From positions 1 to 44,857 of IMG/VR virus record IMGVR_UViG_3300004231_000043: DNA of 44,857 nucleotides. The stretch is one strand, 5' to 3'. Below the pieces are notes generated by a model, which saw only the letters and a program-made list of their open reading frames with translations, made no database searches and was not told where the DNA came from. This stretch comes from a virus. Shown here in pieces: positions 802 through 44,857 of this stretch. The first letter of the stretch is position 1. Each line of letters begins with the position of its first letter. The position numbers were made by a program, and so were the translations under genes.

Positions 802-1551
802 CTACTTGCCCGAAGGCTTCCTGGCGCGGACTCTTGGCGACCTCCGGAGCTTTCGAGTGCGCTTTGGCTGAGATGGAATTTCCGGCAGCGGATTCTGTTG
901 CAGGTACTCCAGAAGCGTGCTTCGCCAAAAGCATCGCGGGGCAAGCGCGCGAAGCGCGTTGAGCCGGTAATGACAACAGCAAACCCCGAGCCGCTTGCCC
1001 TTTCCGCAGGCGCAAAGACGCTTATTGGCAACGCGTCGTTTTGTCGCCAGAAGCATCAGTGCGATGGCGATAGGCCGATGGCCTCGAATGCCAAGAAGCG
1101 CGCCGTAGTCTTCGATGAGGCCCGGGCCGTAGTGGGGCAGCTCTTGGAACGGGTATCCAACATTGCCCTGTGACCGCCACGTGGCCGCGTACAGGAATGG
1201 CACAAGGCATCGTTCAAGGAATGCTACAAGCCCAACGGACTCGCGCATCAGCAGCCTCAGGCGCAGCGGAGAGCCAAGGCAAAAGCTGCCATCGGCATTG
1301 ATGTGTTCGTCGGGGTCCTTACGCAAGCGCCCGCCTTCTTCGAACACGCCCAACAGCGCGTCCGAATTGCCCAACGGAATCTCGATGCGAAGGGAATACG
1401 TGTCGGAGATAGCCGGCTTCCCGTGCGGCGCCAGCTCAAATCCGAATTGTCCGACCAATGTGCATACCCCGTCTTGGCCATTTGGCCTTCGGCGAAGCCG
1501 GGGCCAGGCATCCAAGAGCGCTTCGATGTCCGCTTCCCCGATCGCCCTCAT
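802..1551 (-). CDS. CBASS E2-like protein with C-terminal SEC-C-like motif (type II-short)
   Basis: This 249-residue protein is last in the CBASS operon. Residues about 30-130 resemble an E2 (ubiquitin-conjugating) fold: a beta-meander is followed by DEHINADGSFCL, which matches the His-x-Asn...Cys-Leu active-site block of E2 enzymes, with Cys91 as the probable catalytic cysteine. There is no E1 or JAB partner, as in type II-short CBASS, where a lone E2 acts on the CD-NTase. The C-terminal part carries C180-A-C182-G-x-G-K...C191-C-C-H194, a SEC-C-like zinc-binding pattern, and then a strongly basic tail. The ATG overlaps the CD-NTase stop by 4 nt (ATGA), which implies coupled translation. Family membership rests on motif and context; the role of the SEC-C part is inferred. 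Confidence 0.82.
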   Translation of the reverse strand: MRAIGEADIEALLDAWPRLRRRPNGQDGVCTLVGQFGFELAPHGKPAISDTYSLRIEIPLGNSDALLGVFEEGGRLRKDPDEHINADGSFCLGSPLRLRLLMRESVGLVAFLERCLVPFLYAATWRSQGNVGYPFQELPHYGPGLIEDYGALLGIRGHRPIAIALMLLATKRRVANKRLCACGKGKRLGVCCCHYRLNALRALAPRCFWRSTLLEYLQQNPLPEIPSQPKRTRKLRRSPRVRARKPSGK

Positions 1552-2729
1552 CGGCGGCGATCACACCAAGGAGGCGGCGGTTCCGCCGCGAGCGTCACGC
1601 GTCGGATGCTCGGCGCGGGCGATGCAACGCCAAGTCGCTGTCGCACGCCTTCGGTAAGCGTGACTCCCAAGGCATCGGAGGCTACTTCAACCTGTCGCTG
1701 CGGATTCGCGCCGGCTAGTACCTCGTTGAAATCACGACGCGCCTGCGCGATCCATGAGTGGAAGTTCGCTTTGAGCCTCAAGCGCGCACAGTCGGCGCGC
1801 TGCCAACGATCAGCGAAGTTTTCATTGGGGTTGACGGGGTTAAGGATCTCGTCGGTATTGCTCGCGCGCACCTGTTCCAGTGCTGTTAGCACGCGAGCCA
1901 TCGTCTCGGCCAAGGACTCGCCGTGCCTGTACGCCAGACCGGCGATGGTGGTCAAGATGATCGACACCGGCTTGGCGTCGCAGTTGTCCGCGAACATGAC
2001 GTCCCTGTGGCGCTTGAGCAGCTGCACCACCTGCTGTAACGGCGTCTTGCTGCGGTAGACCGGAGCCGGGTCGACCTGGGCTTCTGCCAGTACCTGGGTG
2101 GATCCCACAGCCGCCGCCATGCGTGAGGCGAACCATAGCTGGTAACCGCCGGGGTTGCTCGACGGCCAATCCGGACTCAGGTACGAATAGTGGTCATGTT
2201 GCTCGTCGGTGATCCACAGGGCCCGTCGAGCGACGTCGCTGGCCAGCGTTGCGCTGACGCCGCGCGTTTCCATCAATGCGCCCAGTTCACGTCGACGGCT
2301 ATCGTCGGCGCGGATACCTGGCACCACATCCATGTGGAACGGCAGCTCGTCACGGTAGCCCAACCGCCAGCAGCGATTTTTGGGTTCCAGCGCCTTCTGG
2401 ATGTTGCGGGCGCGCCGGTATGCCGCCAGCTCGGCACCGACCATTTCCTTTAGCTGCTGCTGGGTATGGCTGGTACGCGAAACGCCGGCGCGCAGCTTGC
2501 AGGTAAAGTCAAGGTCGTACTCGTCGTCCGGATTGACCGGACGGATGGCGGTTCCAAAGGCGAAGGAGCCTTGTACGAACAGGTGCACGTCGTAATCGGC
2601 CAAGCTCGATTCCGGGCGCGAAAACCAGTTGCCGAGGTCTTTGTAACGGCTCAGGGCCAGTTCGTGGGCACGCTCGGGAAGGTCGATTTCCTCAAGCAGG
2701 AATTTCAGGCGGTCATTGGCGTCGGTCAT
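1548..2729 (-). CDS. CBASS CD-NTase (cyclic oligonucleotide synthase)
   Basis: This 393-residue protein is a DNA polymerase-beta-like nucleotidyltransferase of the cGAS/DncV type. It shows the Gly54-Ser55 motif in VQGSFAFGT, the first two metal-binding aspartates in EYDLDF (Asp72, Asp74) and the third in PFHMDVVP (Asp134), so the catalytic centre looks intact. CD-NTases make a cyclic di- or trinucleotide upon phage infection, which activates the linked effector. The start at 2729 overlaps the stop of the HNH-SAVED gene by 4 nt, and the stop overlaps the E2 start by 4 nt. An upstream in-frame extension to 3182 lies entirely inside the effector gene and is rejected. The clade (probably CdnD-like) and the nucleotide product cannot be settled by eye. 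Confidence 0.9.
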   Translation of the reverse strand: MTDANDRLKFLLEEIDLPERAHELALSRYKDLGNWFSRPESSLADYDVHLFVQGSFAFGTAIRPVNPDDEYDLDFTCKLRAGVSRTSHTQQQLKEMVGAELAAYRRARNIQKALEPKNRCWRLGYRDELPFHMDVVPGIRADDSRRRELGALMETRGVSATLASDVARRALWITDEQHDHYSYLSPDWPSSNPGGYQLWFASRMAAAVGSTQVLAEAQVDPAPVYRSKTPLQQVVQLLKRHRDVMFADNCDAKPVSIILTTIAGLAYRHGESLAETMARVLTALEQVRASNTDEILNPVNPNENFADRWQRADCARLRLKANFHSWIAQARRDFNEVLAGANPQRQVEVASDALGVTLTEGVRQRLGVASPAPSIRRVTLAAEPPPPWCDRRR

Positions 2730-3961
2730 GTTCCACTCCGGACTTGCAGGGTTTGCGCGTGGTCGACGGCACGCGGTGCGCGCGGACCGAGTTCCATCAT
2801 CGGGATGAAGCGACCGGATTCGTCCCGGTCGTAGACGATGTAGCGGTGCGCGTGCTGGGTCGACAGCAGCGCGCCGAACTCGATTGCCAAGGCCGCCGGC
2901 ACGACCGGGAACAAGTGGATGGGTTGACCGGTGCTCGCTTCCAGAGTGCTTAATCGCGGTTGCAGCGCCGAGCGGAAGGCATCGATGGTCCCCCGATTGC
3001 GGATCATGCTGTAGCTGGGCTCGGGTGTGGAGAAGGTCGCGATGCGCGCGTCCGGCAAAGCGGCCCGAATGTCGCGGTCCGCCACGTGCGCCGACAGCGA
3101 AAGCACAAGCGCCAACGGGCCATTGCCTTCGGCAGGAGAGTCGAAGGAAAACGGCGGCGGCACTGCTGCAAGGTCCGGCCATTTCAAGCCATGTGTGCGA
3201 TCGCGTGAGTACAGGAAGCGATTGCTGCGGTCGCCAATTTGGCGGCCCAGCCGGATCAGTGACGGGATATCGGCGACCCCGACGACGGCCAGGTTCAGCG
3301 GGTCGCCGAAGGCGCTTGTTCGTGCGGCAAGGCGACCGTGAAGGTGCTCGGCGATGTCCTGCTCGACGTTATTCCAGTAGTGCGCATTCCGACCATCCTT
3401 GCCCGGAGCGCGAAGGCGCAGGACCTCGATGGCCTTGTCCGCCCACAGGCCCTCCGCCAGCATTGCCTCGGCAAGATCACGACCGCGGATTAGGTTCTCG
3501 GTGGCGAAATGCTGGCTGAGGAAGATGACGCCCATCGCGCGTTGGGTTTCTCCGCGGGCTGCAGCCATCCGGATCTGGTCGATGTGGTCCCGATGGGTGC
3601 GCGAAAGGTCCTCCTTCGGGTAACCGTCGGCGTCGGCGTCGATGCGGTCATGGCAACCCGGGCAAAGCAGCATCAGGTTGTCCGGCTCATCGGTGGCGCG
3701 TTGCGCCTGCGCGTCGGTGTAGGCGTCAGGGGCCCGCGGCCCTTTGGGGCTGGCAGGCACAACGTGCGCAACCTGCCCCCAGCGGGTCGGTTTTCCGGTC
3801 CGGAAGTCCTGGGTCAGGTCGGTGCCGCACTGCTCGCAATGGCCGGCGGCACGGATCCAGACCAGCCGCTTGATCGGTTCAGAGGTGGAGAATCGGTTGC
3901 TGGCCCGGCCTTTCCCCCCCGCACCGCGGGCATGGGGAGGCGATTTAGTGGAAGGACTCAT
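2726..3961 (-). CDS. cap5: CBASS effector: HNH endonuclease-SAVED fusion (Cap5 type)
   Basis: This 411-residue protein is the first gene of the CBASS operon. The N-terminal HNH nuclease has zinc-type cysteines C42-x-x-C45 and C100-x-x-C103, with His66 in AHVVPAS, Asn95 in DNLMLLC and His104 in GCHDR forming the HNH residues. The C-terminal half (about 180-405) has the features of a SAVED domain, the sensor of cyclic oligonucleotides. In known Cap5 proteins ligand binding causes oligomerisation and double-stranded DNA cleavage, which kills the infected cell. The ATG at 3961 is preferred because GGAG lies 10 nt upstream; the in-frame ATG at 4000 has no ribosome binding site. The architecture is clear; ligand specificity is unknown. 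Confidence 0.9.
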   Translation of the reverse strand: MSPSTKSPPHARGAGGKGRASNRFSTSEPIKRLVWIRAAGHCEQCGTDLTQDFRTGKPTRWGQVAHVVPASPKGPRAPDAYTDAQAQRATDEPDNLMLLCPGCHDRIDADADGYPKEDLSRTHRDHIDQIRMAAARGETQRAMGVIFLSQHFATENLIRGRDLAEAMLAEGLWADKAIEVLRLRAPGKDGRNAHYWNNVEQDIAEHLHGRLAARTSAFGDPLNLAVVGVADIPSLIRLGRQIGDRSNRFLYSRDRTHGLKWPDLAAVPPPFSFDSPAEGNGPLALVLSLSAHVADRDIRAALPDARIATFSTPEPSYSMIRNRGTIDAFRSALQPRLSTLEASTGQPIHLFPVVPAALAIEFGALLSTQHAHRYIVYDRDESGRFIPMMELGPRAPRAVDHAQTLQVRSGT

Positions 3962-4073
3962 GTAGCGACATCTCCGGAACAGCGTAGGTGGGGCGGCCAT
4001 GCGCTGTCAGCGTGAGTCGCCACCGCTAGGAATCCTTTACGACTTCGTCCTGGGGGGAGTGGGTTTTCGGGGT

Positions 4074-6522: not shown

Positions 6523-6873
6523 CTACTGCCCGAACAGCTTACCCTGATCCAGGTGCGGATCGCGGGCGCGGGCGCGCTTCAGGAGGCGCTGCAGGCCGGG
6601 GCGGGTCATGCGGTAGTCCCGCTGCAGCTCCTGCAGGGTGGCACCGGCCCGGTGCCGGTTGAGGATCTCCACTTCACGCAGGCTCAACTTGTAGCCGAAG
6701 TCCTGCGGCACGTAGATCTCCTGGCTGGCGTATTCCTCGGCCAGACCGTCCGCCACCGCCGCCCCGCACTGCTCGCGCAGCGCTTCGTCCACGCCCTGCT
6801 CCATCAGGACGCGCTGGACGGCGTCGTCGATGGCGGCGAAGAACTCGTGGCGGTTGGCGTAGCGGTTGCTCAT
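6523..6873 (-). CDS. mor: Mor-type transcription activator
   Basis: This 116-residue protein fits the Mor/C family of Mu middle- and late-gene activators. An N-terminal helical dimerisation part is followed by IYVPQDFGYKLSLRE and a helix-turn-helix region (REVEILNRHR to MTRPGLQRLLKRAR) that would bind the major groove. Such proteins bind as dimers to an imperfect dyad and recruit RNA polymerase to promoters with a poor -35. It is near the distal end of the early operon, as expected for a gene whose product switches on later transcription. The start overlaps the GemA stop by 4 nt (ATGA). Only one Mor/C-family gene is visible, so it may control all late promoters. Confidence 0.88.
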   Translation of the reverse strand: MSNRYANRHEFFAAIDDAVQRVLMEQGVDEALREQCGAAVADGLAEEYASQEIYVPQDFGYKLSLREVEILNRHRAGATLQELQRDYRMTRPGLQRLLKRARARDPHLDQGKLFGQ

Positions 6874-7334
6874 CCGTTGGCGGTCTTCCTGGCACGCCGG
6901 TCGGCGTCGATCTGCAGGGCGGCGATGACCTTGGCCAGCTGGTCGGGGTTGCACCAGTCGACGCGTTCGACCTTGCACAGCCGCTTGGCCAGCGCGTGCG
7001 CGTAGGCCCACTCGCGGCCGGCGTCGGCCAGCAGCGCCTCCACCTTGCTCATCTGCGCCGTCAGGTCTCCCTTGGGCTTGCCGGCCCGCCTGCGCGCATT
7101 CTGCGCGTCCTGGGCCGGCTTGCCGGCGATCCGACGCAGCTCGTTGGCGATTGCGTCCAGCTGGCGCGGGTTGCACTTGCCGGCGCTGCGCTGCTCGGGG
7201 CCGTGCTGGGCGCTGACGCGCGCGATCAGGCAGCGGTAGGCGTCGTCCTCCATCAGGCATTCCTTGGCCAGCGCGTGGATGGCGCCCAGGACGCGACGGC
7301 GGGCCTTGTCGGCGTAGTCGGTGCGGCGGTTCAC
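6870..7334 (-). CDS. gemA: GemA-like regulatory protein (DUF1018, Mu gp16 family)
   Basis: This 154-residue protein has the family pattern: an N-terminal helical block (ALAKECLMEDDAYRCLI), a central CNPRQLDAI segment and a C-terminal CNPDQLAKVIAAL block. In Mu the related gene modulates host gene expression and DNA supercoiling; the biochemical role is not settled. The GTG start at 7334 overlaps the stop of the preceding gene (GTGA). Its place just before mor is typical of Mu-like early operons. Confidence 0.87.
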   Translation of the reverse strand: MNRRTDYADKARRRVLGAIHALAKECLMEDDAYRCLIARVSAQHGPEQRSAGKCNPRQLDAIANELRRIAGKPAQDAQNARRRAGKPKGDLTAQMSKVEALLADAGREWAYAHALAKRLCKVERVDWCNPDQLAKVIAALQIDADRRARKTANG

Positions 7335-12002: not shown

Positions 12003-13169
12003 TCAGCCACCCCGAACGAGGTCGGCATTGACGTGCGGCACGCCCAGGTCAGCGGCGCGGTTCATGGCGCCTGCCAGCGCGTTGTGCACCGCCAACGGGT
12101 ACAGCAGCGACCCCTCCCCGCGGGCGGGCGTCAGGCGGGCGCGCAGCGCGTCCAGTGCGCCGTTGTCCAGCACCTTTTCCAGCGGCACGCTGAGCCGCTT
12201 GAAGCGCTGGCCGAGGTAGTCGCCCAGGTTGTTGCCCAGCGGCGGCAGCGTGACTACTTCGATGCGCTGCACCACCTCGCGCACTTCGGGGTTGTGTTCG
12301 CTGAGCTTGGTGGCCAGTTCCGGCTGGCCGATCAGGATGATGGACAGCAGCGGGCGCAGGCCGTCCTTCAGCTCGCGGAAGCGCTTGAGGTGCTTGAGCG
12401 TGGCCATCGGCAGGCTGTGCGCCTCTTCGATGATCAGCACATGGCTATGGCCGGCGCGGGCGCTGTTGCGCAGCGTTTCATGCACCTGGCGAAAGCGCGC
12501 CTCGGGGCTGCTCTTGGTCTTGGCCAGTGGGTCGACGGTGGCCATGATGGCTTCGGCGATGTGCTGGGCGCGCAGGGTCTTGCCGACCTGGTCGGTGCCC
12601 TCCATGCCCAGCACGTAGGGCTCGATGATCAGCACCGCCTGCTCTTCGCGGCGGATGCGGTCCTGAAGCTCTTCGCGCAGGGTGGACTTGCCCGCGCCGC
12701 TCTCGCCGATGACGGCCATGAAGCCACCGTTGCGGGCCACCTGGTACATGCTTTCGCGCACGTAGCGGATGTCCGGCGACAGGAACACTTCGTCGGCGGT
12801 GACGGGCTCAGCGAAGGGGTCGCCGGATAGGTTGAAGTGGCGCCGCGCCTGCGGCGTCAGATTGATTTTGCGAAGCAACATAGCCAGGGTCTCCTCGGGT
12901 TGTTCCTGGGGCTTGGTGGACTGTTCGAACTCGCGCCACGCGTCGTTCGCGGCGTTGTTGGCAAGCAGGTAGGTGTCGATTCCAGCGGCGACCGCGTCGG
13001 CGTTGTTGGCGGGCCAGATGCCGTGATTCGCGAGCAGACTCATGGCCGCGCGGGAGGTACCCACATGCGCGGCCAGGTCGCTGAGCTGCAGCCCGGCTTC
13101 CCGCATCAAACGGCGCAGGCGCAGCGGGCCGTGGCCGGCCTGCGCGATGCTCTTGAGGCGGGCGCTCAT
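12003..13169 (-). CDS. Transposition protein B (AAA+ ATPase)
   Basis: This 388-residue protein has an N-terminal helix-turn-helix (LSDLAAHVGTSRAAMSLL), a Walker A motif at residues 155-162 (GESGAGKS), a Walker B motif VLIIEEAH (about 245-252) and a sensor-type block (LSIILIGQPEL). MuB-like proteins form ATP-dependent filaments on target DNA, bring it to the transposase and protect the phage's own DNA from insertion. The gene follows transposase A with a 4-nt overlap, the standard A-B order. The sequence is closer to the BcepMu/Tn552-type B ATPases than to MuB itself, judging by length and motifs. Confidence 0.9.
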   Translation of the reverse strand: MSARLKSIAQAGHGPLRLRRLMREAGLQLSDLAAHVGTSRAAMSLLANHGIWPANNADAVAAGIDTYLLANNAANDAWREFEQSTKPQEQPEETLAMLLRKINLTPQARRHFNLSGDPFAEPVTADEVFLSPDIRYVRESMYQVARNGGFMAVIGESGAGKSTLREELQDRIRREEQAVLIIEPYVLGMEGTDQVGKTLRAQHIAEAIMATVDPLAKTKSSPEARFRQVHETLRNSARAGHSHVLIIEEAHSLPMATLKHLKRFRELKDGLRPLLSIILIGQPELATKLSEHNPEVREVVQRIEVVTLPPLGNNLGDYLGQRFKRLSVPLEKVLDNGALDALRARLTPARGEGSLLYPLAVHNALAGAMNRAADLGVPHVNADLVRGG

Positions 13170-14974
13170 GCCGCGCCACCGACAAGGCGCAGGCCGCCGC
13201 GCTCGGGCTTGGCCAGCGCTTCCGCCCAGGCTTCCACCTCGTCGATCGGCAGGCCGTCAGGCCAGTGCTGCGCGGTGCGCGCGTACATGTCGGCGGCCCA
13301 TGCCTGGCCGGCGCGTTCCACCAGTGGCTTGAGCCGCATGGCGGCCTCCACATGGTTGAGCGCGGGAAGTTCGGCGCGGATCGGGGCGAGCTGTTCGACA
13401 TCGAAGCGCGGCGCGTCTTCGACCGCCGGCACGTTCACGTTGAGGCTGTGGCCGCGGCGCGGCAGGAACGGGATTTCCGGCGCTTGGTGGATGGACTTGT
13501 ACGGATCGATCCGGCCACCGAAAGGCATGGCCTTCGCCTTGCGCTTGGCCTCGGCTTCCGCGTCGGTGGTGGCGTCCATCGCCAGGCGCTCGACGCGCTT
13601 GCGGTTCGTGTCGGCAGGCGTGTCGGCATGGGACCGGAAGCTGCCCAGGGGCACTGCGCCGACGAAGCCGTAGGCGTCCGCCTCCAGCGCTTCCATCTTG
13701 AACCAGGTGGTGCGGCCCTCGTCGTCGATCACGCGCACCTGTGCGCTGGTCTCGCCGCCAAAGGCGTTGCGCGTCACGGTCAGCTTCTCGCCCACGATCA
13801 CGCCAGGCACGCCGGAAACGTCGTAGGTGTGGCCGCGGAAGCTGATGCGCAGCAGGCTGTTGACCTTGCGCTCTTCCGGCTTGTGGGTGGCCAAACGCAG
13901 GCACTGCTCCACCGACGGCACGAAGTGCAGATGGCCAGGCTGAATCGTCATCCATGCCTGGTAGCGCGATGTGCCGTGGCGCGTGTGCTGGACGGTTGCA
14001 TTGTGGTGGCGCATCCATTGCCAAGCGGCTTCGTTCAGTTCCTCCAGCGATTCAACGCGGTGGTAGCGCAGCCGGTGCTCGAAGCTGCGTTCGATGATGT
14101 CGTTGGTCTTCTCGACCTGGCCCTTTGCCCACGGCTGGCCCGGCTTGTTGACGCGCAGCGTGACCGCCAGCGCGTCGCACAGGTTGCGGAACATCGCGCT
14201 GGTGTTGGCACTGCCCGGATCGACCATGATCATGTCCGGCGCGCCGCAGAACGGGTCGGCCGCGCCGCGGTACTGCATGGCGTTGATGAAGGTCTGGCAC
14301 AGGTTCGCGCCTGACTCCGCGCCCAGCACGTATTCCACGTAGAAGGCGCCGCTGGCGTGGTCGGTGTAGACGTAGCGCCAGACCCGGTCGTTGACGATGC
14401 GCTCCAGGTTCCGCGGCTTGTTCTTGTAGAACTCGTCGCGCGGCATCACCGAAAGCCCTTCAGCGCGGCGCAGGTAGTACAGGACACACAGGCTGGGATC
14501 GGCCTGCCACAGCTGGTTGGGGCGCTCGGTTGAGAGCGACACCTTCGGCGCGGGCGCCGAAAGCTGGTCGGGATGCAGCCGTTTCGCTCGCAGGGCTTTG
14601 GCGGCGGAGCAGTCGCTGAGCAGGCGGATTTCGCCCGTCTCCTCGTTGACCACCTCGCCGCGGATTTCTCCGTTGGCGCGCAAGGTGTCGATGGCCTCCG
14701 TAATGCTGGAGAGCCGCTTGCCGTTGCCGCGGCGCGACTCCAGCAGCATGGCCGAGATCAGCTCCAGCTCGGCCAACTGCCAGCCTGTCTTGCCGCAGTC
14801 GCTGCGGCGCTTCCGCGTTTTGCGGAAGCTGTGCGCACCGATCAGCCGATAGGCCGTCGGTCGGCTGACGCTCAGGTCGAGCGCAAGGCCGTCGATGACC
14901 GCACCCTTCCTGCTCTTTGGCGCCAGCAGCAGGTCCGCTGCGGCCCTGGCAATCCGCTCGACGTCGTAGGCCAC
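13166..14974 (-). CDS. Transposase A (DDE recombinase)
   Basis: This 602-residue protein has an N-terminal helix-turn-helix (LDLSVSRPTAYRLIG) for end binding, followed by a retroviral-integrase-like core with the DDE triad: Asp159 (LWQADP), Asp252 (MIMVDPGSANTS) and Glu288 (GQVEKTND). After the core come a beta-barrel-like domain (about 385-450) and a C-terminal part that probably contacts protein B. The enzyme nicks prophage ends and joins them to target DNA for lysogeny and replicative transposition. The GTG at 14974 is chosen because it follows the upstream stop by 2 nt; a longer in-frame extension covers a real upstream gene and is rejected. All catalytic residues are present, so the enzyme looks functional. 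Confidence 0.93.
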   Translation of the reverse strand: MAYDVERIARAAADLLLAPKSRKGAVIDGLALDLSVSRPTAYRLIGAHSFRKTRKRRSDCGKTGWQLAELELISAMLLESRRGNGKRLSSITEAIDTLRANGEIRGEVVNEETGEIRLLSDCSAAKALRAKRLHPDQLSAPAPKVSLSTERPNQLWQADPSLCVLYYLRRAEGLSVMPRDEFYKNKPRNLERIVNDRVWRYVYTDHASGAFYVEYVLGAESGANLCQTFINAMQYRGAADPFCGAPDMIMVDPGSANTSAMFRNLCDALAVTLRVNKPGQPWAKGQVEKTNDIIERSFEHRLRYHRVESLEELNEAAWQWMRHHNATVQHTRHGTSRYQAWMTIQPGHLHFVPSVEQCLRLATHKPEERKVNSLLRISFRGHTYDVSGVPGVIVGEKLTVTRNAFGGETSAQVRVIDDEGRTTWFKMEALEADAYGFVGAVPLGSFRSHADTPADTNRKRVERLAMDATTDAEAEAKRKAKAMPFGGRIDPYKSIHQAPEIPFLPRRGHSLNVNVPAVEDAPRFDVEQLAPIRAELPALNHVEAAMRLKPLVERAGQAWAADMYARTAQHWPDGLPIDEVEAWAEALAKPERGGLRLVGGAA

Positions 14975-14976
14975 GG

Positions 14977-15909
14977 TCAGCCCCTCGCGTCCTGCTGCCA
15001 ATCGACCAATCGCCGATCCATGAGCAGCGGCGCCTGCACGTAGTCGCCGTCGCGCACGGCGCGCAGGTCGTTGATCAGACCGGACAGGATGCCGGCGACC
15101 TCCGTATCCACGTTCAGGCCGTGGTCTGCGGCGTGCGTCATGACCGCGGCAGCCGCGCCGGACAGGCCGGCTTCCTCGCTGCCGGCCGCAATCGCAAGGC
15201 GAACGCTGGACGCCGCCTTCTCCAGCTCGCGCAGCAGGCTGTCCAGCTGCTCGTCGGGGGTGGCCTTCTTCCAGGAGCGGGCGGCCTTGGCGGCCTTTTC
15301 CTCGGCCCTGTCCAGCTTCTCCGAGCCCTTGCGGATGACCTCGTCCTTCGCCGCCAGGTCTTCGCGCGCGCCGCGCAGCGCTTCGCGCAACTGGCTGGCG
15401 CTCATCCGCTCGATGTCGTCCAGGCTGATGCCCGAAACGGACTCGCCGGACTCCAGCGCCTGAAGCTCCTCGTCGTCCAGGATGGTCAGCTCCAGCACCT
15501 TGGCCTGGGTGCCGGCGGCTTTCAAAACGGACATCGTGTCCGTTTTGGTGAACTTGAGCGCCACGCCCATGAGGCGCCGCGCCGCACGCGGATGGATACC
15601 GCGGCGCTCGCACTGATGCTGGAAGTCGCCGTGCTCGGTCTGCTCCTTGATGAGGAGCAGGCCGCGGCCCATCTCCAGGATGTCCTCTACCGAGCGGCGC
15701 TGCCGGAATTCCACGGCGCTCCACAGGGTTTGCACGTCGAGCGAGCCGGCATAGCCGATGTTCTCGGCCAGCTTCCGCACCGCGGCTTCGGCCTTCGCCA
15801 GCTCCTGCAGCTCGCTGCTTCGGGCGGGAACCTTGTCCCCGTCCATCGCGTCGCCGTGTAGTGCGACGGGTGCCAGCGCCTTCGCGCCGCGTTTTTCGGT
15901 CTTGGCCAT
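14977..15909 (-). CDS. DUF3102-like early protein upstream of transposase A
   Basis: This is a 310-residue protein. The segment EMGRGLLLIKEQTEHGDFQHQ resembles the DUF3102/ParB-neighbour block (a host-type DNA-binding helix set), followed by HPRAARRLMGVA. Residues about 165-235 are a charged coiled coil (REALRGAREDLAAKDEVI onward). A gene of this type precedes transposase A in many BcepMu-like phages. The role is unknown; DNA binding or transpososome help is a guess. Confidence 0.7.
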   Translation of the reverse strand: MAKTEKRGAKALAPVALHGDAMDGDKVPARSSELQELAKAEAAVRKLAENIGYAGSLDVQTLWSAVEFRQRRSVEDILEMGRGLLLIKEQTEHGDFQHQCERRGIHPRAARRLMGVALKFTKTDTMSVLKAAGTQAKVLELTILDDEELQALESGESVSGISLDDIERMSASQLREALRGAREDLAAKDEVIRKGSEKLDRAEEKAAKAARSWKKATPDEQLDSLLRELEKAASSVRLAIAAGSEEAGLSGAAAAVMTHAADHGLNVDTEVAGILSGLINDLRAVRDGDYVQAPLLMDRRLVDWQQDARG

Positions 15910-43526: not shown

Positions 43527-43715
43527 GTGGCGAAAACCAGTACCAATGCGACCGCGCATCGAGACGCGGCAAAGGCAATCCCAGGGCGGAATGGCTACCG
43601 CCACCGCCAGCAGTTCGGCATCGTGGTGATCTGCGACAACGAACAGGCGCAGGAGCGGGCCTACACCCACCTGCAACGCGCGGGCTTCAAGAAGCTCAAG
43701 GTGGTGACCGTATGA
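43527..43715 (+). CDS. Small protein paired with the ABC-GNAT gene
   Basis: This 62-residue protein has a GTG start (AAGGAG 7 nt upstream), a basic N-terminus and a compact beta-alpha-beta part (QFGIVVICDNEQAQERAY then FKKLKVVTV). It overlaps the next gene by 4 nt (ATGA), so the two are probably made together. It lacks the zinc-finger cysteines of Mu Com. Function unknown. Confidence 0.65.
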   Translation: MAKTSTNATAHRDAAKAIPGRNGYRHRQQFGIVVICDNEQAQERAYTHLQRAGFKKLKVVTV

Positions 43716-44857
43716 AGATCCAGGTCAACCATCGGTGCAGCGACTTCGACAGCTACCGCGCCGCGCGGGTGAAGTCGCTGTTCAACTGCGAGAGCGGCGC
43801 CAATTTCCAGCTCACGGCTGAGCTGCCGATCGAGGACAACGACTGGCGCATTGGCGTCGTGGTGGGGCCTTCTGGCTCAGGCAAGACCAGCATCGGCAAC
43901 CGGGTTTTCGGGCCGCGGGCCGTGTGGCGGCCGCGCTGGCCGAAGGATGCGCCGGTCATCGATGCGATCGCGCCAGGCGAGGCGTTCGATGCGGTGCCGG
44001 CGGCGCTGTCGGCCGTGGGGCTTGGCTCGGTTCCGGCATGGCTGCGGCCCTACCAGGTGCTGAGCAACGGCGAGCGGTTCCGCGCTGACTTGGCCAGGCT
44101 GATTGCCGAGCGGCCGCCGCGTGCTGTGGTGGACGAATTCAGCAGCGTGGTCGACCGGCAGATCGCCCGGATCGGTGCGATGGCCTTCGCCAAGGCGTGG
44201 CGTCGTGGCGCTGGCCAGGCGGTGCTGCTGAGCTGCCATTACGACGTGCTGGACTGGATCGAGCCGGACTGGATCTACGACACGTCGACCGGCACCTTCG
44301 AGCGGGCGGAAGCCGGGAGGCGACTTCGGCGACGCCCGCCGATCGCATTCGACCTGTGGGAAACCGGACGCCACCATTGGCCGGCATTTGAGCCGCATCA
44401 CTATTTAAAGCTGCCGCCCATGATCGCCGCCACGTACTACGTGGCCTCCGTCGACGACCAGCTGGTGGCGCACGTGGCGGTCAGTACCCGCCCCGGCATG
44501 GCGGAGGCCCGCGCCTGCCGGCTGGTGGTCATGCCCGAGTGGCAGGGCGCCGGAGTTGGCTTACGCTTCTTACAAGCTGTCTGCGAGCGCTGGCGCACTG
44601 GCCAGAACCGCTACGGCATCAAGGTGCCCACCCTGTTCCACACCAGCCATCCGGGTCTGTGTGCGGCGCTGCGGCGCGACCCGCGCTGGACGCAGGTCAG
44701 CGGCAGTCTGATTGGAAGCAACCGCCAGCGCTGCAAGGACGCGATGGCGCGCTCGGTAATCCGTGGCCGCATGGCCTTCGTTGGGGCCGGATACGGCGGC
44801 CATTTCCGGGCGGTGCAGGGGTTTCGCTACCTTGTGGAGGACACCGCATGCGCTTGA
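43712..44857 (+). CDS. ABC-type ATPase fused to a GNAT domain (candidate Mom-like DNA-modification protein)
   Basis: This is a 381-residue protein. Residues 1-205 are a compact ABC ATPase: Walker A GPSGSGKTS (52-60), signature LSNGE (117-121), Walker B AVVDE with the catalytic Glu (138-142) and switch His in SCHYD (176). No membrane segment is present, so it is not a transporter. Residues about 210-381 resemble a GNAT fold, with the acyl-CoA loop in MPEWQGAGVGLRF (QGAGVG at 278-283). The gene is near the right end of a Mu-like phage, where Mu keeps mom, whose product also has a GNAT fold and modifies adenine. A DNA-modification or anti-restriction role is therefore plausible, but inferred. 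A new ATG begins inside its 3' end. Confidence 0.78.
   Translation: MKIQVNHRCSDFDSYRAARVKSLFNCESGANFQLTAELPIEDNDWRIGVVVGPSGSGKTSIGNRVFGPRAVWRPRWPKDAPVIDAIAPGEAFDAVPAALSAVGLGSVPAWLRPYQVLSNGERFRADLARLIAERPPRAVVDEFSSVVDRQIARIGAMAFAKAWRRGAGQAVLLSCHYDVLDWIEPDWIYDTSTGTFERAEAGRRLRRRPPIAFDLWETGRHHWPAFEPHHYLKLPPMIAATYYVASVDDQLVAHVAVSTRPGMAEARACRLVVMPEWQGAGVGLRFLQAVCERWRTGQNRYGIKVPTLFHTSHPGLCAALRRDPRWTQVSGSLIGSNRQRCKDAMARSVIRGRMAFVGAGYGGHFRAVQGFRYLVEDTACA
44848..44857 (+). CDS. Start of a further gene, cut by the window edge
   Basis: ATGCGCTTGA begins 7 nt after TGGAGG (44835-44840), an excellent ribosome binding site, and overlaps the ABC-GNAT stop in a different frame. Only three codons are visible. 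It shows that the operon and the prophage continue to the right. Confidence 0.6.

Follow-up and report, generated by a model that had tools for sequence, protein, structure and literature searches.

An ABC ATPase-acetyltransferase fusion operon of phages with candidate acyl-CoA donor genes, and its possible role in DNA acylation

What might a phage do with an ABC ATPase that is fused to a GNAT domain and has no transporter part? The question is raised by the right end of a viral DNA record (IMG/VR IMGVR_UViG_3300004231_000043, positions 1 to 44,857), the whole 44,857-nucleotide stretch of which we call the window. Gene content identifies it as a transposable Mu/B3-like phage. The minus strand encodes a Mu-type transposase (13166..15724; phrog_310, E=1.5e-93), a MuB-like DNA transposition protein (12003..13169; phrog_296, E=4.6e-69) and a Mor/C-like late transcriptional activator (6523..7260; phrog_532, E=1.2e-14), and the plus strand carries genes for terminase, portal, tape measure and tail. 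Another ORF (14977-15909; phrog_1748, 8e-60) overlaps the 852-aa transposase ORF, and because the phrog_310 match of the latter begins near residue 263, the true transposase start probably lies near 14950. At the left phage end, the minus strand also holds an HNH endonuclease (2726-4000; phrog_740) and a 544-aa protein to which no function is assigned (1548-3182; phrog_20942).

The operon under study closes the plus strand. A 62-aa partner ORF with a GTG start (43527..43715; phrog_28816, E=5e-16) shares an ATGA overlap, and hence translational coupling, with the 381-aa ABC-GNAT fusion ORF (43712..44857, ATG start). A third gene, a predicted formyltransferase beginning MRL, starts at 44848 (ATGCGCTTGA), overlaps the fusion stop, and is cut by the record end (44848..44857). 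These coordinates and overlaps agree with a first-pass annotation of the window, which had described a coupled 62-residue partner and a further gene starting inside the end of the fusion. A Mu-type transposase is present in the window and in 11/11 window-clade viral records tested, with the ABC-GNAT operon at the record end. In Mu-like carriers the operon sits at the right end, the place of mom, which is the position that the same annotation had given for the window genes, and in other phages it adjoins the terminase.

Both halves of the fusion have conserved active-site residues. Within the ABC ATPase domain (residues 1-200; 43712..44311), the Walker A sequence GPSGSGKT (residues 52-59; 43865-43888), the Walker B DE with its catalytic Glu (residues 141-142; 44132-44137) and the H-loop His (H176; 44237-44239) are invariant in an alignment of 64 relatives that reaches down to 24% identity, as are L, S, G and E of the signature LSNGE (residues 117-121; 44060-44074). 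The GNAT domain runs from residue 204 on (44321..44857), matches Pfam Acetyltransf_7 (PF13508) above its cut-off at residues 240-303, and includes an HHY motif (44396-44404; Y231 lies in HHYL) and the CoA-binding sequence QGAGVG (residues 278-283; 44543-44560). In the same alignment its residues Y231, R270, P275, G279, G281 and W326 are invariant. An AlphaFold model of the fusion (mean pLDDT 91; 88 for the GNAT part alone) shows an ABC ATPase head and a GNAT fold, which Foldseek matches to ABC ATPases, with a head that resembles SufC/FtsE-type ATPases rather than SMC/Rad50, and to RimI/SpeG-type GNATs. No membrane (transporter) domain is found in the model, and the neighbouring genes are the partner, the formyltransferase, and tail or terminase genes. 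Motif, Pfam and fold evidence therefore bear out the earlier description of complete ABC motifs joined, with no transporter part, to a GNAT domain with QGAGVG. The ORF is not a chance reading frame, since it matches PHROG 11143, has many relatives and shows low dN/dS (0.09-0.20 against five close relatives); purifying selection acts on this gene.

Given this location, the first-pass annotation had viewed the fusion as a possible relative of Mu Mom, and on this point the comparisons came out negative. Profiles of Mu Mom and of the fusion GNAT domain align at hhalign E=0.62 with a probability of 0.1%, the Mom profile being a shallow one of six close sequences. The PHROG that contains Mom (phrog_1384) is absent among the PHROG matches of the fusion, and the Mom structure 8bv8 is absent from the best 50 of 317 fold matches at E<=0.001, those 50 being RimI/SpeG-type GNATs. 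We have rejected kinship with Mom on the strength of these profile and fold tests, and treat the likeness of HHY to the KHYS of Mom as resemblance only. No Mom was found in 31 ABC-GNAT carrier records.

The fusion instead belongs to a widespread family of its own, which PHROG labels 'unknown function' (phrog_11143, E=1e-149 over residues 1-380, the full length). Relatives turned up in 52 phage records and in no fewer than 349 stretches from IMG/VR and 158 from genomes, drawn from Proteobacteria, Bacteroidetes, Planctomycetes, Verrucomicrobia and others; the closest bacterial-genome relative among the matches listed is from a Thermomonas MAG (87%). Scans with the EastWest and LE3 proteins returned few relatives. 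Strictly lytic carriers also exist, namely Leptospira phages LE3/LE4 and T4-like Aeromonas phages. Fusion is not universal: several Gram-positive phages (L086, L087, L097-L100) and Tenacibaculum phage pT24 (L091), which the window protein matches at 3e-36, encode ABC and GNAT in two neighbouring genes.

The text of Iyer et al. (2021; PMC7824862) predicts that a GNAT coupled to an ABC ATPase is a DNA acyl-modification system, restating a prediction of Iyer et al. (2013). Accession QAX98348.1, cited there, is a homologue of the window protein (7e-35); that text gives it for Tenacibaculum phage pT24, and the sequence record assigns it to Aeromonas phage AsFcp_2 (L094, 3899-5077). The core idea of DNA modification is therefore not new. 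We consider it plausible, and the corresponding suggestion of the first-pass annotation, that a GNAT system driven by ATP may modify DNA, holds up as a reading already in print once its link to Mom is set aside. Neither 'formyltransferase' nor 'ParB' occurs in the text of PMC7824862 that was searched.

The third gene can be read in relatives whose sequence continues beyond the fusion. In five close ones (L003-L005, L179 and L180) start and stop overlap just as they do in the window, and the formyltransferase frame stays open for 181-209 aa. Among window-clade loci with room, meaning at least 450 bp of sequence beyond the fusion, a formyltransferase, mostly of 180-210 aa, comes next in 125/144 (59/67 plus 66/77). 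A search by the formyltransferase alone returned 24 viral loci besides L020, and in 24/24 the gene lies directly downstream of ABC-GNAT, an exclusive linkage. The first-pass annotation had supposed that the next gene gives a further step, and this neighbourhood comparison favours that supposition. Gene 3 is not essential, because no donor gene occurs in 19/144 of the loci with room or in many distant relatives; no alternative donor gene recurred among the members that have no formyltransferase. The window and 12/80 IMG/VR relatives (L002, L016, L018, L022, L031, L045, L050, L051, L061, L064, L067 and L070) terminate precisely with the final base of the fusion stop codon; nine other IMG/VR relatives terminate exactly at the formyltransferase stop. 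Such ends at gene boundaries look like provirus trimming that removes gene 3. Many virus records break off, as the window does, just at the fusion gene and so often lack the informative third gene. In phage records the gene is labelled a phosphoribosylglycinamide formyltransferase or a tRNA-methyltransferase, the latter being a misannotation seen at L084 (1814-2464) and in other Gordonia phages.

The best PDB relatives of gene 3 are the hydrolase domains of formyl-THF dehydrogenase (8e-24), in a family that also holds ArnA, sugar N-formyltransferases, Fmt and PurN. The triad H96, S98 and D132 is kept in 59, 59 and 58 of 59 relatives, and the position two before the catalytic His is never Asn (0/117), being Gly, Ser, Ala, Val or Ile instead. 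An Asn at this position is a general marker of amine formyltransferases (PurN, Fmt, ArnA). Its lack, together with failure at the curated equivalog cut-offs (37.8 bits versus 150.1 for PurN; 48.8 versus 201.5 for Fmt), led us to reject the PurN function given in phage annotation. In formyl-THF dehydrogenase, His106/Ser108/Asp142 transfer a formyl group to a phosphopantetheine thiol, and HypX is thought to formylate CoA itself in like manner, with the authors noting that direct proof is lacking (PMC6802093). Because the dehydrogenase-type triad is kept and the amine-transferase Asn is never present, we propose from these residues that gene 3 makes formyl-CoA, which is a natural substrate for a GNAT. 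It counts against this proposal that HypX, the one enzyme thought to make formyl-CoA so, is absent from the gene 3 PDB matches at E 0.01; for the same reason we rejected HypX as the nearest relative. No paper on a formyltransferase that takes part in modifying phage DNA came up in literature searches.

A sister clade that includes Rhodococcus phage Jace, at ~35% identity to the window protein, carries a different module in the place of gene 3: an aspartate decarboxylase (PanD, 2e-33), whose alignment with 2c45 extends over its length, and a class III CoA-transferase of reduced size. The latter matches PF02515 in 10/10 members and has an invariant Asp in its GDT motif, where the catalytic Asp of class III CoA-transferases lies. 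This CoA-transferase was seen in the sister clade only. Scans with distant members as queries (L103-L146; 38 loci) found it in 14 loci, in ten of them with PanD, and no locus combines the PanD/CoA-transferase module with the formyltransferase. One donor module thus replaces the other, and the module labels cluster strongly on the tree, with 15 changes versus 43.5 in shuffles. At L104 (5080-7300), and also at L105 and L109, a second ABC-GNAT copy follows PanD and the CoA-transferase, so that two tandem fusions flank one donor module. By itself PanD could also just supply precursor for CoA; that it is paired with a CoA-transferase favours a role in making the thioester. The common denominator of both modules looks, as far as homology can tell, like a special CoA thioester, either formyl-CoA or beta-alanyl-CoA. 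The kinship of gene 3 with formyl-THF dehydrogenase, the absent Asn and the sister-clade module together make the third gene look like the maker of a special acyl-CoA for the GNAT.

The best available hint at the target comes from upstream of the fusion. The 62-aa partner has a basic N-terminus and a beta-alpha-beta-like tail (YRHRQQFGIVVICDNEQAQERAYTHLQRAGFKKLKVVTV), and its family, phrog_28816, matches residues 164-199 of a ParB-like protein of Gordonia phage Sisko (E=2.6e-6). At 134 window-clade loci the upstream ORF is no longer than 110 aa, and at about 20 it encodes a protein of 183-348 aa that ends in the same tail and is ParB-like in the Gordonia case. ParB-like proteins with a recognisable tail also precede the distant members in Jace and in Streptococcus, Lactococcus, Leptospira and Pasteurella. 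By sequence, then, the partner is a free-standing version of the C-terminal tail that belongs, in other phages, to a ParB-like protein encoded at this place. Since short tail ORFs stand where ParB-like proteins stand elsewhere, transposable phages have probably lost the ParB domain and kept the tail, which suggests that the tail binds ABC-GNAT. The ParB-like domain matches phrog_498 (E=4e-13 to 5e-44), a type fused to phage DNA methyltransferases, and the N-terminus of PADLOC MTase_II matches it at E=1e-12. Because this ParB type forms the N-terminus of phage DNA methyltransferases, DNA is the target that it points to. In Porphyromonas phages the tail partner is annotated as an Acr candidate (L083, 9876-10004).

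Taken together, these observations lead us to a tentative but quite possible reading, in which ParB-tail protein, ABC-GNAT and donor-making gene 3 form a three-part phage operon that acylates phage DNA. Positioning of the GNAT on DNA would fall to the ABC head and the ParB-derived tail (or ParB) protein, with ATP perhaps used by the head for loading or scanning, and the GNAT would acylate an exocyclic amine of a base before packaging, with a CoA thioester as acyl source. In the window clade, the formyltransferase would shift the formyl of 10-formyl-tetrahydrofolate to the CoA thiol to give formyl-CoA; in the sister clade, aspartate decarboxylase and class III CoA-transferase would yield beta-alanyl-CoA. 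DNA tagged in this way might escape host restriction. What the data show is the order of the genes, their homology, the conserved motifs, the exclusive linkage of the formyltransferase and the exchange of one donor module for the other; that DNA is the target, which acyl group it receives, what ATP does and that restriction is evaded, we infer. DNA acylation is supported by the conservation of ABC and GNAT active-site residues across 64 diverse members, and by the placement of the operon, which lies at the mom site in Mu-like phages (with no Mom in the 31 carrier records) and by the terminase in others. Counting against it are the nearness of the GNAT fold to RimI and SpeG, which have protein and polyamine substrates, the SufC/FtsE type of the ABC head, and the absence of any detected relationship to Mom; the papers searched, moreover, yielded neither nucleoside nor restriction results on any carrier. 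The more specific version, in which formyl-CoA and beta-alanyl-CoA are dedicated donors and the ATP-driven GNAT N-formylates or N-beta-alanylates phage DNA bases, we regard as somewhat unlikely.

The RimI-like fold makes a protein target the main rival. The operon could acylate a host protein (RNA polymerase, the ribosome or a defence protein) for takeover, with ABC and ParB recognising the target, and there is precedent for phage GNATs acting on host proteins, for example phiKMV Rac, cited in PMC7824862. However, DNA methyltransferases carry the same type of ParB as the conserved partner, and the neighbours of the operon are late or terminase genes, not genes for early takeover, so that we consider this reading unlikely. 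DNA could also be hypermodified in two steps: the GNAT would add a small acyl or aminoacyl group, using one of the usual CoA donors, after which the new amine would be formylated by the formyltransferase. Loci that have the fusion alone (the 19/144 above) would fit a late tailoring step, and the family of gene 3 does include amine formyltransferases (ArnA, sugar N-formyltransferases, Fmt, PurN); yet their catalytic Asn is missing in 117/117 sequences, and PanD and CoA-transferase in the same place in the sister clade point to donor supply, making such a scheme rather improbable.

Might gene 3 and PanD instead be auxiliary metabolic genes that only boost general folate or CoA metabolism during infection, with no direct supply to the GNAT? 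In PHROG the formyltransferase is classed among auxiliary metabolic genes, and the product of PanD is beta-alanine, a CoA precursor. Against this stand the 24/24 linkage of the formyltransferase to ABC-GNAT and the mutual exclusion of the two modules, which leave the idea very unlikely. Least probable, in our view, is a prophage defence or superinfection-exclusion module with ABC-GNAT as effector or sensor. Accessory genes at the right end of phages are often morons, and the ABC part weakly matches PADLOC mad3 (1.4e-7) and, in Jace, AbiLi, but the PADLOC match spans only 38 residues around the ABC signature, a region that we judge generic; moreover, metabolic donor genes are ill-suited to an effector, and some carriers are strictly lytic.

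As far as could be checked, the putative donor-making third genes are new, and they make the prediction of DNA modification testable in culturable phages. If DNA acylation is correct, they identify what the long-predicted ABC-GNAT system transfers; the phages to examine would be Pseudomonas phage Komp_PAO1_1, Gordonia phage Sisko and Rhodococcus phage Jace. On the more specific version, with its dedicated donors, the use of formyl-CoA and the type of DNA modification would be ones that we found described nowhere.

Several known systems resemble parts of this arrangement. Mu Mom, with Com, shares with it a GNAT fold, the right end of a transposable phage, an overlapping small upstream gene and a presumed modification of DNA; Mom, however, has no ABC part and no detectable sequence relation to the fusion. 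Com is a zinc finger; the window partner, as a ParB tail, has just one Cys, and we accordingly rejected Com as an analogue. Gene 3 has the fold family, the His-Ser-Asp triad and the lack of the amine-transferase Asn in common with the N-terminal (hydrolase) domain of formyl-THF dehydrogenase, and the fold family and the lack of that Asn in common with the N-terminal domain of HypX. Unlike both, it is a free protein of 180-210 aa with no carrier, dehydrogenase or enoyl-CoA-hydratase domain. The sister-clade CoA-transferase has PF02515 and the GDT motif of class III enzymes such as CaiB and formyl-CoA transferase, but at ~220 aa, versus ~400 in known ones, it matches the Pfam model by its N-terminal part only. 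The ABC-GNAT system of PMC7824862 represents the same protein family and the same predicted chemistry as the window operon; to the passages there on ABC-GNAT, which mention no formyltransferase, PanD, CoA-transferase or ParB tail, the present comparison adds these partner genes.
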